DNA of 39,284 nucleotides from an uncultured bacterium (GTDB lineage Bacteria > Cyanobacteriota > Vampirovibrionia > Gastranaerophilales > Gastranaerophilaceae): assembly GCA_947428835.1 (NCBI GenBank), contig CANENE010000016.1, forward strand, positions 1 through 39,284, written 5' to 3'. This document shows positions 5,337-39,284 of the stretch, piece after piece (the stretch's first letter is position 1; each line of letters opens with the position of its first letter). Made by a program: the position numbers and the translations under genes. The notes below the pieces were generated by a model that did not search any database, was not told where the DNA came from, and saw only the letters and a program-made list of their open reading frames with translations.

Positions 5337-6953
5337 CTAATCGAAATCCATAACTTCATCTGTTACACAACGAACGGAAAAAGCATACTTAAGTGCAGCA
5401 TCCGAATATGCGAAAGTTCCAAAAATGCCACCGTTTGGTTCTGCTAAATAACCAACTGCACCATTTTCTCCCCAAATATGATCGGGTGCACAACCATTTC
5501 CATATGCTCCTTGGCACTTTTCTTCTAATGGGAAACACTGATCACTTCCTTTGGTATTAGTATGGCGCTCGCATAATTGCAAACCGCCTGCGCCCATCCA
5601 CTTGCTTAATTTTGGATTTTCTTTTGTTTCAGAATTAATTACTTCTTTCCAGCCTTCAAGTTCGGCAAGTGTCGGCAATCTCCAGCTTCCTTGCCTTGTT
5701 CCAAAAGGTGCCCAATAATGACATATACTATTTGCTGCTTTATATGTACATACAGTTCTATAATTTGAAAGATAGTGGCTTATGCCATATTTTTCGTTAA
5801 CATTATTACCGCTACTGCTGGCAACTGATGTTAAACCCTTCCAACAGCATGCATCACCCGTGCATGAGGTTCCAACACTAACAAGTCCATGCAGATAGCC
5901 ATTATTCGCATTTTCTATAATAGGGCCTCCTGTATCAAATGCGTTATACTGGCTGACGCAAAGGTTCTTTCCATCAACTCCATTATATTCTTTAGGCACA
6001 AACATAGCGTTAAATGGTGCGCAATCACGATAACTTTTTGGCTTCCTCCAGCGGATTTCATTATTTGGCTCTTCTTTTTCGGCAGGTTTTTGAGCAAAGC
6101 TGTAATCTTTTAAGCCGTCGTATACGCATCTTACACTAAAGGCACGCTGTCTGGATAATTCAATTTTGTCCCAATTGCCAGTTGTATAATTATGATATAA
6201 TACATAAGGAAGATTTTTTTCGTTTATCCAGGTTATGGCTGGAATACAGTGATTATAGCTCGCTTTTATACAGTTTGAAATATGATTGCATTGTACAAAT
6301 CCATCTGCTTTATTTGTTCCATGGTCATTGCAAAATTGCAAACCATCTATACCTCTGTTAACATTCAGGAAATTGAAATTGCCTATCCATCCTTTTGCTT
6401 CGGCCTCATTTGGGAGTCTCCAACTTCCAACACTTGTTCCTTCCGGAGCGTAATTTCGGCAGATCGTATTTGCTGCGTACCATTGGCAAACAGTTCTGCT
6501 GCAACCGCTATAATCAGCACCTTTATTTCCCGTTAGCCCACATTGTCCCAATGTTGCGGTTTGGCCTTTCCAACAACAATTGCCGGTATCTGAAGTTGAG
6601 CAGGAGGAACCAACGGATAATTGTGATACACCGCTTATTGGTAATCCATTATCTCCCATATTATATTTTGTGACACATACATTATTCTTGCCGTCATTCA
6701 TATTTGCCGGAATAAAAAGAGCATTAAATTTATCGCAGTCTTCTTGAGATTGTGGTGCATTATTTTTAAGTTCTGTATTTTGATTATTTTGACTACTGCC
6801 AATAAAACTGCCAACTGTGATATTCGAGGCTTTTAGCTTTTTTGTAATAATTGGAGCAAAGGCTCCCAAAAGCAGAGAAATGATGACTAAGGATATTAAC
6901 AGTTCGATTAATGAGAAAGCTCGATTTTTTATATTATAATTTAGCGTAAACAA
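5337..6953 (-). CDS. Type IV pilin-like protein with two lectin-like (DUF1566-type) domains
   Basis: A surface or secreted pseudopilin candidate. The N-terminus has a prepilin cleavage and methylation motif, A^FSLIELL with the conserved Glu at +5, followed by a hydrophobic helix and a Lys-rich edge (ITKKLKAS). After it come two copies of a cysteine-rich domain, about residues 72-280 and 308-538. Each copy runs DC..FNA.F.P, GK..(V/L)CV..YN, CCWKG, RTVC.(W/Y).AANSIC-like, GSWRLP..AE..GW, GLQ.C and AFSVRCV. The SWRLP and SVRCV signatures match the Lcl/DUF1566 C-type-lectin-like fold. The longest frame starts with TTG at 6968, but the TTG at 6953 has GGAG nine bases ahead and gives a 12-residue leader, so I prefer it. 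It is divergent from an XRE regulator and followed by a clear terminator. The ligand is unknown. Confidence 0.85.
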   Translation of the reverse strand: MFTLNYNIKNRAFSLIELLISLVIISLLLGAFAPIITKKLKASNITVGSFIGSSQNNQNTELKNNAPQSQEDCDKFNALFIPANMNDGKNNVCVTKYNMGDNGLPISGVSQLSVGSSCSTSDTGNCCWKGQTATLGQCGLTGNKGADYSGCSRTVCQWYAANTICRNYAPEGTSVGSWRLPNEAEAKGWIGNFNFLNVNRGIDGLQFCNDHGTNKADGFVQCNHISNCIKASYNHCIPAITWINEKNLPYVLYHNYTTGNWDKIELSRQRAFSVRCVYDGLKDYSFAQKPAEKEEPNNEIRWRKPKSYRDCAPFNAMFVPKEYNGVDGKNLCVSQYNAFDTGGPIIENANNGYLHGLVSVGTSCTGDACCWKGLTSVASSSGNNVNEKYGISHYLSNYRTVCTYKAANSICHYWAPFGTRQGSWRLPTLAELEGWKEVINSETKENPKLSKWMGAGGLQLCERHTNTKGSDQCFPLEEKCQGAYGNGCAPDHIWGENGAVGYLAEPNGGIFGTFAYSDAALKYAFSVRCVTDEVMDFD

Positions 6954-6987
6954 TATATTATTCTCCAAATTTTGTTCTCTACCAAAT

Positions 6988-7057
6988 ATTATATAATGTT
7001 TACATCAAAAATCAAGCTTAATTTTAATGTTTACATTATTTAAACAAAATAAATAAT
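6988..7057. promoter_or_regulatory. Divergent promoters with twin palindromic operators
   Basis: Two copies of TAATGTTTACAT start at 6994 and 7025, 31 bases apart (about three helical turns). The second extends to the perfect palindrome TAATGT-TT-ACATTA (7025-7038); the first has one mismatch (6994-7007). Minus-strand promoter for the pseudopilin: TTGATT (7015-7010), 16-base spacer, TATAAT (6993-6988), so operator copy one fills the spacer. Plus-strand promoter for the XRE gene: TTTACA (7030-7035), 16-base spacer, AATAAT (7052-7057), so copy two covers the -35 box. This fits repression of both genes by the adjacent XRE protein. Confidence 0.55.
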
Positions 7058-7110
7058 GATTTATGCTAAAAATACGCAATTAAGTTATCAACAGGAATTT
7101 AAATTTTTAA

Positions 7111-7467
7111 ATGAACTCAAAACCTTTTAAAAAACAAAAAACACAGGAAGACTTTTATAAACTTGCTTTAGGCGAAAACATAAGAAACATCAGAAGGCGG
7201 ACAAAAATGACACAAGATGCTTTTTCTGAAAAAATCGGCATAGAACCATCGAGCCTTAGCAACATCGAAAACGGCAAAAGCTTTCCTTCAACCCTTACAA
7301 TTATTCAAATTCAAAAACACTTTAATATAAGAGCGGAAGAAATTTTTGATATTGAATTTTCAAACAATATCAAAACTATAGAACAAGATATTTCAAGCAG
7401 ATTAAAGACACTTGATAATACTAAAAAACGCGCTTTGTGGATGCTTGTAAAATCTTTTGAAATTTAG
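7111..7467 (+). CDS. XRE-family HTH transcriptional regulator
   Basis: A 118-residue DNA-binding protein with one Cro/C1-type helix-turn-helix at about residues 23-80: LGENIRNIRRRTKMTQDAFSEKIGIEPSSLSNIENG. The N-terminal 20 residues are basic, and the C-terminal 35 residues are helical and Lys-rich, perhaps for dimerisation. It is head-to-head with the pseudopilin gene and shares a control region with twin palindromes, so I infer it represses both itself and the pseudopilin. Its 3' end overlaps the convergent muramidase-like gene by four bases. It resembles the XRE proteins at 32723 and 38970 more than classical phage repressors, and no phage genes adjoin it. Confidence 0.88.
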   Translation: MNSKPFKKQKTQEDFYKLALGENIRNIRRRTKMTQDAFSEKIGIEPSSLSNIENGKSFPSTLTIIQIQKHFNIRAEEIFDIEFSNNIKTIEQDISSRLKTLDNTKKRALWMLVKSFEI

Positions 7468-9434
7468 ACTAAGAAATGTTTGTATTGATGGGTTGGATCA
7501 ATTGAAGCATATATATCGTTCCATCTGTTTTGCCAGCCTTTTGCAAATTTCTGTTGAGATGGGTCGTTTGCAATTATTCTTTGATATTTTTCCATTCTTG
7601 CCTGCATAAATTTATCAATATCGCCTTGGGCAATTTTATCAAATGCAGATGCACCGCCGACACCATGGTTTATGGAAGCATCAAGCAAGGCATAAGCATA
7701 TGCTGCGTTGCCTTTTCTTAAATAATCTGCAGCACCGCTCGCTTCAAAATAATTGACTCTATAAATTTCAGAAGCTTCTTCTTTTGTAATTTCTTTTACA
7801 CTTTTCTTTGGAAGCCCGTTTTGTTTTTGCCAAGCATCATAGGTTGCTTGTGTTATGCCCATGTTGGTTGCGCCTCCGTGGTCATCAGGATCATTTACGA
7901 AACCACCTTCATGACCAAATACTCTTCCGAGCATTTCGTCAAATGTTGCATCAAATGGGCTTGCTGCTTGTTTATTATCTATTTCTTCCTGTTCTTTTTC
8001 AAGCTCAGCAAGTTTTTCCTGTGCTTCATCAAGTTTGGGTTCTACTTTTTCAAGCTCTTGTTGTTTTACGGTTTCAACATTTTCTTTCTTATCATCATAG
8101 GTCTTAATAGCTTCTTTTGTTTCAGGGCTGGCTTGCTCTTGCATTTGGCTATCAAGCTCTTGTTTTTCTGCTTGCATTGATTCTTTTTCAGCCATTAGGC
8201 TTTCTTTTTGTGCTTTTAAGCTTTCAAGCTCTGCTTTAGCCGCTTCAACTTCGGCTTTAACACTTTCTATCTCGCTTTGAATTTCTTGTTTTCTTGCTTC
8301 AATTTGAGAGGCAACTTCTTGAGCCTCACTGCCTTCGCCGCTTGGAGTTTGGTCGCTTATAGAAGATAGCGAGCTTTCAAGGGTAGATATCTTTGCTTCG
8401 CCTTGCGAAATTTGAGCTTCAAGCTGTGACATTTGAGCATCACACTCTGAAATTTGCTGGTCAATTTCGCTCATTTTTTCAACATTTTCGTTATATTGTT
8501 CTTTTAGTTCCTGTTCAATTTGTTCATCTTGTTCAATTTGCTCTTGCATATTTGCTTTAGCTTCGTTGCGCTCTGTTGCTGCAGCAGCAACTTCTTGCTG
8601 TTTGCCTGCTTTGATATCGGAAACTTCTTGTTTATATTGTTCTATCTGTTCTTTGAGATTTTCTTTAGGATCATAGGAGCCACCGCCCGATGAACTGCCC
8701 CAGGAGCCATACGAACTGCCTCCGCCTCCGCCGCCTGCGACAGAGCCGCCCCAACTGCCACCGCCTGATGAGCCTGAACCTGCTATATATGGGTTAGAAG
8801 AAGTGCCAAAGTCTTTCTTTGGAACATTGACAGGTCCCTGATGGTTCTTAATACTTTCTTTTTCAAGCTGCTGCCATTTTTGTGCTTCCGTTTGAAGACC
8901 ATTGATTTCATTAAAGAAATCTTTTATATCATCCATAGAAAAATTAGCTTTATCACCATTAACATTTAAAGCTTTAATGAATTTCTGTGCCTCATCGTTA
9001 CTTATACCTTCAATTCCATCAGAATCAATCAGGCTATTCATCATATCATCAGAATATATTGCAGACATTACATTCATAAAAGCATCACTATTTTCAGCAC
9101 CTTCAGCTGTAGCATTTTCAACAGCTTCTTGAGATAAATCCATATCAGAAATTTCATCCATAGATTTTGTAAATACGGAAGCATCATCTTTAGCTTCTTG
9201 TTGTTCGCCATTATCTTCAATAGTTGCTGCAATGCTTTCCAAAATTCCATTCACAAAAGCGTCACCCGATTGATAACCATTGGCGCCTTTTTGTTCAAGC
9301 AATTCCCTGTCTTCTTTGCTTAGAGAATTAATATATTTTCGTGCATTGCTTTGCGCTTTAATATAAGAAGTGCCGTTTGCCTTCTTATCTATTTTGCTAT
9401 ACACTTTTCTAATAATTTTGTCTATGTTGCCCAT
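7464..9434 (-). CDS. GH108-type N-acetylmuramidase-like protein with long coiled coil
   Basis: A 656-residue protein. Residues 494-656 match the glycoside hydrolase 108 lysozyme fold: FDEMLGRVFGHEGGFVNDPDDHGGATNMGIT with the catalytic Glu509 in HEGG, then a helical core and the closing FAKGWQNRWNDI typical of the family. These enzymes cut the sugar backbone of peptidoglycan. Upstream is an acidic N-terminal region (1-190), a Gly/Ser-rich hinge (about 210-255) and a Glu/Gln-rich coiled coil (about 255-490). I see no signal peptide or membrane segment, so how it reaches the wall is unclear. Options are a phage-derived endolysin, a specialised secretion effector or a structural protein. No holin or phage gene is nearby. 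The ATG is preceded by AAGGGTG. It overlaps the convergent XRE gene by four bases. Confidence 0.85.
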   Translation of the reverse strand: MGNIDKIIRKVYSKIDKKANGTSYIKAQSNARKYINSLSKEDRELLEQKGANGYQSGDAFVNGILESIAATIEDNGEQQEAKDDASVFTKSMDEISDMDLSQEAVENATAEGAENSDAFMNVMSAIYSDDMMNSLIDSDGIEGISNDEAQKFIKALNVNGDKANFSMDDIKDFFNEINGLQTEAQKWQQLEKESIKNHQGPVNVPKKDFGTSSNPYIAGSGSSGGGSWGGSVAGGGGGGSSYGSWGSSSGGGSYDPKENLKEQIEQYKQEVSDIKAGKQQEVAAAATERNEAKANMQEQIEQDEQIEQELKEQYNENVEKMSEIDQQISECDAQMSQLEAQISQGEAKISTLESSLSSISDQTPSGEGSEAQEVASQIEARKQEIQSEIESVKAEVEAAKAELESLKAQKESLMAEKESMQAEKQELDSQMQEQASPETKEAIKTYDDKKENVETVKQQELEKVEPKLDEAQEKLAELEKEQEEIDNKQAASPFDATFDEMLGRVFGHEGGFVNDPDDHGGATNMGITQATYDAWQKQNGLPKKSVKEITKEEASEIYRVNYFEASGAADYLRKGNAAYAYALLDASINHGVGGASAFDKIAQGDIDKFMQARMEKYQRIIANDPSQQKFAKGWQNRWNDIYASIDPTHQYKHFLV

Positions 9435-32722: not shown

Positions 32723-33058
32723 ATGGATGAAAACAGCAAAAAGACAATACTTGGTAATTTAATCAAGAAAGAGAGAAAGAAACTAAAATTATCTCAAGAT
32801 AAATTTAGTGAATTAATTGGAATTGACCCGACAAATCTAAGTAAAATAGAAAGAGGCATAAGCTTTCCTTCTTTTGCAACTTTTTGCAGTCTGATTGAAG
32901 TTTTAAAAATTGAACCTAATTATTTTCTTGGTTTCATAAATTTTGAAAAAGTGGAAAAGAATCCCAAAGACCTTGAATTGCTTGAAAATTTAAAGACATT
33001 ACCTGATGATGCCAAAGATAAAATAAACGAGCTTATTTTAATATTGAAAACAAAGTAA
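32723..33058 (+). CDS. XRE-family HTH transcriptional regulator
   Basis: A 111-residue regulator with a Cro/C1-type helix-turn-helix at about 9-66: LGNLIKKERKKLKLSQDKFSELIGIDPTNLSKIERGISFPSF. The C-terminal segment (about 75-111, NPKDLELLENLKTLPDDAKDKINELILILKTK) is helical. The open frame extends to an ATG at 32654 that would add a hydrophobic 23-residue leader. That ATG lies inside the inverted repeat at 32629-32660, so I prefer 32723, although neither start has a good ribosome site. A membrane-anchored form cannot be excluded. It is divergent from the MerR-like gene, which may be its target. Confidence 0.82.
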   Translation: MDENSKKTILGNLIKKERKKLKLSQDKFSELIGIDPTNLSKIERGISFPSFATFCSLIEVLKIEPNYFLGFINFEKVEKNPKDLELLENLKTLPDDAKDKINELILILKTK

Positions 33059-38622: not shown

Positions 38623-38970
38623 TTACTTTATTAATTGAATATATTGATAAATTTTGGGGATATTGTTTTCATTATTGTCCATAGAAAGGATAATATTTTC
38701 TTTCATTTTTGCAATACTTTCGGTTTCATCCGAAAAATATAGCTGCCAAGGTAGTACATTTAAAACCTGCGCAATTGCAACAAGATTTTCGCATTGGGGA
38801 TAATTATGTCCGGATTCAATCCTTGATAAGCTTTTCATTTCAATATCAACAAGTTCGGCTAATTCCTGCTGGGATAATCCTCTCTTTTTTCTAAAAAACT
38901 TTATTTTCTCCCCGATATTCTTCTTAAGCTTTATTGCTTCAGCTTTGCTTAATTTCGATAACTGCTGCAT
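38623..38970 (-). CDS. XRE-family HTH transcriptional regulator
   Basis: A 115-residue regulator with a Cro/C1-type helix-turn-helix at about 17-76: IGEKIKFFRKKRGLSQQELAELVDIEMKSLSRIESG. The C-terminal 35 residues may mediate dimerisation. A GTG at 38976 is in frame, but it abuts the AAAGGG ribosome site, which is well spaced for the ATG at 38970. It is head-to-head with a second pseudopilin gene and shares with it a spacer holding a 15-base-arm palindrome, so I infer it controls that gene and itself. This repeats the arrangement at 6953-7111. Confidence 0.87.
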   Translation of the reverse strand: MQQLSKLSKAEAIKLKKNIGEKIKFFRKKRGLSQQELAELVDIEMKSLSRIESGHNYPQCENLVAIAQVLNVLPWQLYFSDETESIAKMKENIILSMDNNENNIPKIYQYIQLIK

Positions 38971-39025
38971 AAACACCCTTTCTATTTATAAATTTTAAAT
39001 TCAAATCAGATGTTTAATAACTATT

Positions 39026-39060
39026 TTTAAATAAGAATTTTAAATAAATTCTTATTTAAA
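39026..39060. promoter_or_regulatory. Long perfect palindrome, probable operator
   Basis: TTTAAATAAGAATTT (39026-39040) and AAATTCTTATTTAAA (39046-39060) pair perfectly over 15 bases around TAAAT. It lies between the divergent XRE and pseudopilin genes, and its right end coincides with the -35 element of the predicted pseudopilin promoter. No T run follows on either strand, which favours a protein-binding site over a terminator. Confidence 0.6.
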
Positions 39061-39083
39061 GTTGTAATTTATAGAATTATAAT
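39055..39083 (+). promoter_or_regulatory. Predicted promoter of the second pseudopilin gene
   Basis: A perfect TATAAT (39078-39083) lies 17 bases after TTTAAA (39055-39060), a weak -35 inside the right arm of the palindrome. Transcription would begin near 39090, giving a leader of about 38 bases with AAAGGG before the ATG. Confidence 0.45.
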
Positions 39084-39127
39084 GTAAAATTTTAATTAAA
39101 AATATTATTTGAAAGGGTAATTTTTTT

Positions 39128-39284
39128 ATGAATAGCAAAAAATGTAAGATTTTGTTTGGATTTTCACTTATTGAACTTTTGATAAGCTTAATCATAATCT
39201 CTCTTTTAGTTGCGGCATTTACTCCAATCATAACGAAGAAATTGAAAGCATCAGATATTTCAATAGGTTCTTTTGGAAGCGGAA
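39128..39284 (+). CDS. Type IV pilin-like protein (5' part, runs off the window)
   Basis: The first 52 codons of a pseudopilin. A short basic leader of 11 residues (MNSKKCKILFG) ends in the canonical prepilin peptidase site G^FSLIELL with Glu at +5. A hydrophobic helix (SLIIISLLVAAFTPII) and TKKLKASDISIGSFGSG follow. Residues 10-52 are nearly identical to the matching region of the pseudopilin at 5337-6953 (FSLIELLISL, ITKKLKAS, then IxxGSF), so they are paralogues; the rest, perhaps another lectin-like domain, lies outside. AAAGGG is the ribosome site. It is divergent from an XRE regulator. Confidence 0.85.
   Translation, partial: MNSKKCKILFGFSLIELLISLIIISLLVAAFTPIITKKLKASDISIGSFGSG

Follow-up and report, generated by a model that had tools for sequence, protein, structure and literature searches.

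A conserved spacer with two putative operators between a small XRE regulator gene and a divergent pseudopilin gene in the Gastranaerophilaceae

The window, by which we mean the whole stretch of 39,284 nucleotides analysed here, corresponds to contig 16 in a draft genome of 1.8 Mb. In it a gene for a small XRE-family regulator and a pseudopilin gene are transcribed divergently from a common spacer, in which two putative operators, O1 and O2, were located (Table 1). The pseudopilin carries a prepilin cleavage/methylation N-terminus, recognised by both PF07963 and TIGR02532 above their cut-offs. Its start is likely the TTG at 6951-6953 and not the TTG 6968 of the open reading frame list, because several relatives begin with ATG-TTT-ACN at the matching position. 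The gene converging on the XRE gene (7464-9434, minus strand) codes for a protein of 656 aa in which a glycosyl hydrolase 108 domain was recognised (79.7 bits); it is perhaps a cell-wall enzyme. Another XRE-pseudopilin pair of divergent layout runs from 38755-39217 into the contig end, where it is truncated; its spacer contains a perfect 14-base inverted repeat. A third HTH_3 match in the window (32762-32926, plus strand) has no nearby pilin match. Comparison of the window with Rfam gave no match at the gathering threshold.

Table 1. Genes, predicted promoter elements and putative operators of the divergent XRE-pseudopilin pair (positions in the window).
Feature	Position	Strand	Basis
XRE regulator, 118 aa	7111..7467	+	HTH plus two C-terminal helices; HTH_19 52.5 bits (cut-off 30.2); AlphaFold model, mean pLDDT 85
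Divergent pseudopilin	5337..6953	-	N_methyl (PF07963) 28.6 bits (cut-off 21.2); TIGR02532 22.4 bits (cut-off 16.3)
Candidate third site, speculative	6973..6986		Near predicted pilin start; inverted O2-like word in one clade
Pilin promoter -10, TATAAT (predicted)	6988..6993	-	At least 4/6 matches at register in 19/27 spacers
Operator O1 (putative), TAATGTTTACATCA	6994..7007		Inside the pilin -35/-10 spacer; exact word and conserved block
Pilin promoter -35, TTGATT (predicted)	7010..7015	-	At least 4/6 consensus matches in 27/27 spacers; TTGACA in several distant relatives
Operator O2 (putative), TAATGTTTACATTA	7025..7038		Perfect 6+2+6 palindrome centred at about -42 of the predicted XRE start; exact word
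XRE promoter -10, TATGCT (proposed)	7062..7067	+	TATNCT in 24/27 spacers

The word TAATGTTTACAT occurs exactly at 6994-7005 and again at 7025-7036, both times on the plus strand and with starts 31 bp apart, as the first-pass annotation had claimed for its twin copies. O2 consists of the half-sites TAATGT and ACATTA around a central TT and is a palindrome without mismatch; in O1 five of the six half-site pairs match. Exact matches to the 11-position site were found in the 1.8-Mb genome only at the places of O1 and O2, and a pair of exact TAATGTTTACAT words within 60 bp is expected by chance about 2e-5 times per genome; of 5000 Markov-simulated spacers, 158 contained an exact 12-mer repeat of any kind. 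When up to two mismatches were allowed, the word was not enriched in the window (11 occurrences vs 12.5 expected from shuffles). Allowing one mismatch, the 11-position site gave 90 matches genome-wide vs 94 for the reversed control, which is background, and we therefore do not claim a wider regulon for it. Tests on single sequences gave little. The general 14-mer repeat test reached only p = 0.08 for this spacer, and the palindrome test gave p = 0.72. Over 37 spacers of the same genome repeats were weak (Fisher p = 0.02) and palindromes null (p = 0.996). As the repeat test on the spacer itself was weak, conservation is the main evidence for the operators.

To follow the spacer in relatives, XRE homologues were collected both in 191 family genomes and in contigs of named species. 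Of the 17 homologous loci from the latter, 12 carry the label Gastranaerophilales, Galligastranaerophilus or Melainabacteria and four that of 'uncultured bacterium'; the remaining one, which is the weakest, is labelled Firmicutes. Ten loci that repeated the same places were removed and the remainder anchored without gaps, which gave 30 rows (the window and 29 loci), with a column profile from 29. The counts below are over 27 rows and omit L022, where the anchor was misplaced and the sites are visible, as well as L025 and L027, whose spacers are without the sites; the aligned spacers are related by descent and such counts are thus not independent. In the 27 gapless spacers, which belong to XRE homologues of 40-100% identity, O1, O2 and the 31-bp register recur. 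The conserved blocks are O1 (approx. 6997-7004), the pilin -35 (7012-7015), O2 (approx. 7028-7039) and a TATNCT motif (7062-7067), and the columns between them vary. The O1 core retains TGT in 23/27 spacers and ACA in 16/27, both together in 12/27; for O2 the figures are 23/27, 17/27 and 13/27, respectively, and in one clade AGATTA replaces the ACATTA half-site. O1 and O2 resemble each other hardly more within one homologue (10.6/14 positions) than across homologues (10.2/14). The columns of the candidate third site are poorly conserved. For 23 of 28 homologues a divergent pilin motif was detected no more than 420 bp away. Of the five homologues lacking it there, L037 has a pilin motif at 493 bp and L043 has a pilin-like start that runs into the contig end, and beside the XRE homologues of L017, L019 and L023 no pilin motif was seen. 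The first-pass annotation had named retention of both palindromes in orthologous spacers as the test of its model, and both sites were indeed retained in register in the 27 spacers; its phasing of about three helical turns is kept there as well. Judged by this comparison, the conserved two-operator spacer is a real finding.

The pilin promoter that had been proposed, with O1 filling its -35/-10 spacer, agrees with the alignment, in which both the -35 and O1 are conserved; at the place of the -10 one clade has a 1-base insertion. The promoter suggested for the XRE gene fared differently. Its -10, AATAAT at 7052-7057, has at least 4/6 consensus matches in only 10/27 spacers vs 27/27 for the hexamer at 7062-7067, and it was set aside. 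Its -35, TTTACA at 7030-7035, averages 4.0 matches (at least 4/6 in 18/27 spacers), but lies inside O2 and too far away to serve a -10 at 7062. By the same comparison that gave the sites, their register and the pilin -35, the first-pass XRE promoter is probably wrong and the conserved TATNCT at 7062-7067 the -10 instead, without a consensus -35: at 15-18 bp upstream the hexamers agree with TTGACA at 2.1-2.7 of 6 positions on average, vs 4.6 for the pilin -35. Assuming that transcription begins 7 bases after the -10, the XRE start would be near 7074, and the centre of O2 would then fall at about -42 of the XRE promoter, if TATNCT is its -10. A position of about -42 is where class II activators sit. 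The first-pass XRE promoter would instead start transcription at about 7064, and the pilin start is predicted near 6981 on the minus strand.

The XRE protein matched HTH_19, HTH_3, HTH_31 and HTH_26, all above cut-off, and thus has a Cro/CI-type helix-turn-helix; Pfam detected HTH families only. The protein is predicted to be all helical. With its model as query, the best Foldseek matches were C.BclI, a designed DNA binder and C.AhdI; the lambda repressor ranked below them. By sequence the solved relatives were PezA and others with E values of 1.7e-5 or weaker. The best NCBIfam match across most of the protein was the RstR-type NF041951, which at 39 bits against a cut-off of 80 bits does not place it in the RstR family. 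We do not class the protein as a lambda CI, an RstR or a C protein. Across 13 close-clade proteins its recognition region does not vary, and its gene adjoins the conserved operators; as had been proposed, the adjacent XRE protein is likely the binder of O1 and O2.

The same arrangement is found many times in the genome. The counts of XRE-pilin pairs cover 3 genomes, those of pilins 15. The genome of the window has 45 prepilin-type N-termini at E ≤ 0.01, 44 of them over cut-off, and 67 HTH_3 matches, of which 30 are outside divergent XRE-pilin pairs. A divergent XRE gene lies within 700 bp of 37 of the 45 pseudopilins, with 0.6 expected by chance; two further pilins have an XRE gene upstream on the same strand and none has one downstream. 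Because the divergent layout is the same at 37 pseudopilins, it is probable that many are served by a repressor of their own. In the relatives G127 and G141, 23/36 and 31/96 pilins, respectively, have a divergent XRE gene. Across a phylum-wide sample, five genomes of the family (this one included) contain 45-102 such pilins and eight others 5-11. Eight pilins of the genome are unpaired. Six of these were inspected: one (L144, C17:9295) has a divergent MerR-family gene in place of an XRE gene (61.4 bits), and two have small divergent open reading frames with sub-threshold HTH-like or other matches only.

Some modules showed additional features. In one (L112, C3:1309) the XRE protein includes a Peptidase_S24 domain (37.8 bits, cut-off 23.3), and the pilin there may thereby be linked to DNA damage. 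Contigs often stop in or near pilin N-termini beside XRE genes (L043, L045, L065, L117 and the end of the window), perhaps because many similar pilin 5' ends break assemblies. At L201 (C3:77434-78093) two XRE-pilin modules flank a gene for a reverse transcriptase and one that is Avd-like (PF22296, 48.8 bits against a cut-off of 40). Beside this reverse transcriptase lies a 213-bp copy of the 3' end of the neighbouring pilin, with 92.5% identity to it; eight places in the genome match. Only 1/16 of its mismatches is at an A, so that a classical template repeat was not established. At E 1e-3 the copy did not match the window, and the idea that the retroelement acts on the pilin of the window was set aside.

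The two sides of the spacer were compared within and between modules. We searched for a word, alike at 9/10 positions or better, common to the pilin -35/-10 spacer and the XRE side, and took the expectation from pairing across modules. The comparison took in modules that had sufficient sequence and in which a pilin promoter could be recognised, 28/37 from the genome of the window, 9/22 from G127 (22 of its 23 pairs being covered) and 17/31 from G141. In the genome of the window 19/28 modules had such a word vs 6.4 expected (permutation p < 5e-5), and in G141 8/17 vs 3.9 (p = 0.003); in G127 the result, 5/9 vs 3.0, was not significant (p = 0.21). Strong pilin promoters (at least 10/12) were found in 43/90 modules vs 3.7 on average over 20 mononucleotide shuffles. 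XRE proteins and spacers were also compared between genomes for 87/90 modules. XRE proteins that resemble each other in different genomes have spacer motifs in common: for the 9 cross-genome XRE pairs with a normalised score of at least 0.55 the spacer motif score averaged 18.3 vs approx. 8.8, with one pair at only 8.0, and it was 9.6 for the next 24 pairs and 8.4-9.0 for the remainder.

A second module, with its XRE gene at C7:79611, was analysed in 20 loci, 18 of 30 homologue matches and 2 others. In 19/20 loci at least 11/14 positions of TTCTATATATAGAT match 48-49 bp before the XRE start, and TTCTAT was found in the last bases before that start in 20/20. A pilin motif is present within 260 bp in 13/20 loci and absent from that distance in 7/20. 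By its sequence this operator is unrelated to the O1/O2 word. The geometry of the module looks autorepressive, and for this reason the -42 geometry is not general to all modules.

Taken together, the most likely mode of action of the spacer is that of a divergent repressor switch of the lambda type, and we hold with good confidence that it is a private one, in which O1 would silence the pilin and O2 would control xre, many pseudopilins having their own autoregulated XRE repressor. We infer that O1 and O2 are bound by the XRE protein, its dimers probably sitting on the same face of the DNA; the conserved 31-bp register makes cooperativity possible and no more. Bound at O1 it would block the near-consensus pilin promoter, and at O2 it would control its own weak promoter. 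Occupancy of O2 would more likely activate than block the xre gene, because of the centre at about -42 and a promoter without recognisable -35. We give activation about an even chance and repression at O2 a somewhat smaller one. Lambda CI activates at PRM and controller proteins activate at OL, and the -42 geometry suggests that auto-activation fits at least as well as the self-repression of the first-pass annotation. In that case the pilin would stay in an 'off' state that sustains itself until a fall in the XRE level flips it.

The model of the first-pass annotation was a plain double repressor, in which the XRE protein, sitting on O1 and O2, turns down the promoters on both sides in a negative feedback loop. 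Repressing their own promoter is the commonest behaviour of small XRE proteins, O2 adjoins the xre promoter and could hinder polymerase there, and the second module has one operator near the -35 region and one abutting the start codon. However, the conserved -10 places the centre of O2 near -42, beyond the core promoter, and the hexamers at -35 distance match TTGACA at 2.1-2.7/6 positions on average. We regard this model as a serious possibility that falls short of being the expected one. It is improbable that a different regulator binds the sites and the adjacent XRE gene is merely a neighbour: the 67 HTH_3 matches of the genome offer other candidates, but operator type tracks XRE type across genomes and the exact sites occur in the genome only within this spacer. 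That the repeats are a matter of chance in an A+T-rich spacer, as the lack of enrichment of the word and the p of 0.08 would allow, is contradicted by the footprint, a register identical in 27 spacers while neighbouring columns drift, and can be dismissed.

The proposed private switch can be compared with several known systems. In lambda OR, with PR and PRM, a small HTH repressor likewise adjoins operators between two divergent promoters, one operator silencing the strong promoter and another lying near -42 of the weak promoter of the repressor. The predicted starts give operator positions that would fit this CI-type switch if the conserved TATNCT is the -10. Unlike CI, the 118-aa XRE protein has no CI-type C-terminal domain, and there are two clear operators here vs three in lambda, with a pseudopilin as the target. 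The restriction-modification controller proteins C.AhdI and C.BclI, among the best structural matches, belong to a group that activates and represses its own promoter via two adjacent operators. The XRE protein is longer than these and has two extra helices, its operators lie between divergent genes, and its neighbours are the pseudopilin and the GH108 protein. RstR-type phage repressors gave the best NCBIfam match over most of the protein, but far under the cut-off, and the neighbour here is a pseudopilin. With phase-variable or recombining pilin families the system shares a large paralogous set of surface proteins, apparently controlled gene by gene; unlike in these, each gene would be under a repressor of its own.

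The design as such, one repressor with operators on a pair of divergent promoters, is familiar; tens of modules per genome is a scale that we did not find described. The literature was covered by titles and the beginnings of abstracts, most subscription papers lying outside this scope, and there no description of such XRE-pseudopilin modules was found. Passages of PMC5877343 mention pilA and type IV pili, and 'XRE' is absent from those passages.

The operators that were compared differ from one module to another, and we infer orthogonality of XRE proteins and operators. Tentatively, and as a reading that we consider rather unlikely in full, the lineage may possess tens of CI-like switches that are orthogonal to one another, that each serve one surface pseudopilin and whose independent flipping would give combinatorially different pilin coats in a clonal population, and at least one pilin may be diversified by the adjoining reverse transcriptase and Avd-like genes. 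If the XRE proteins bind only their own sites, one cell would naturally contain many repressor-operator pairs that are orthogonal to each other, and the surface-protein repertoire would be controllable gene by gene. With promoters, sites and binding proteins all predicted, a group known largely from metagenomes becomes experimentally approachable.
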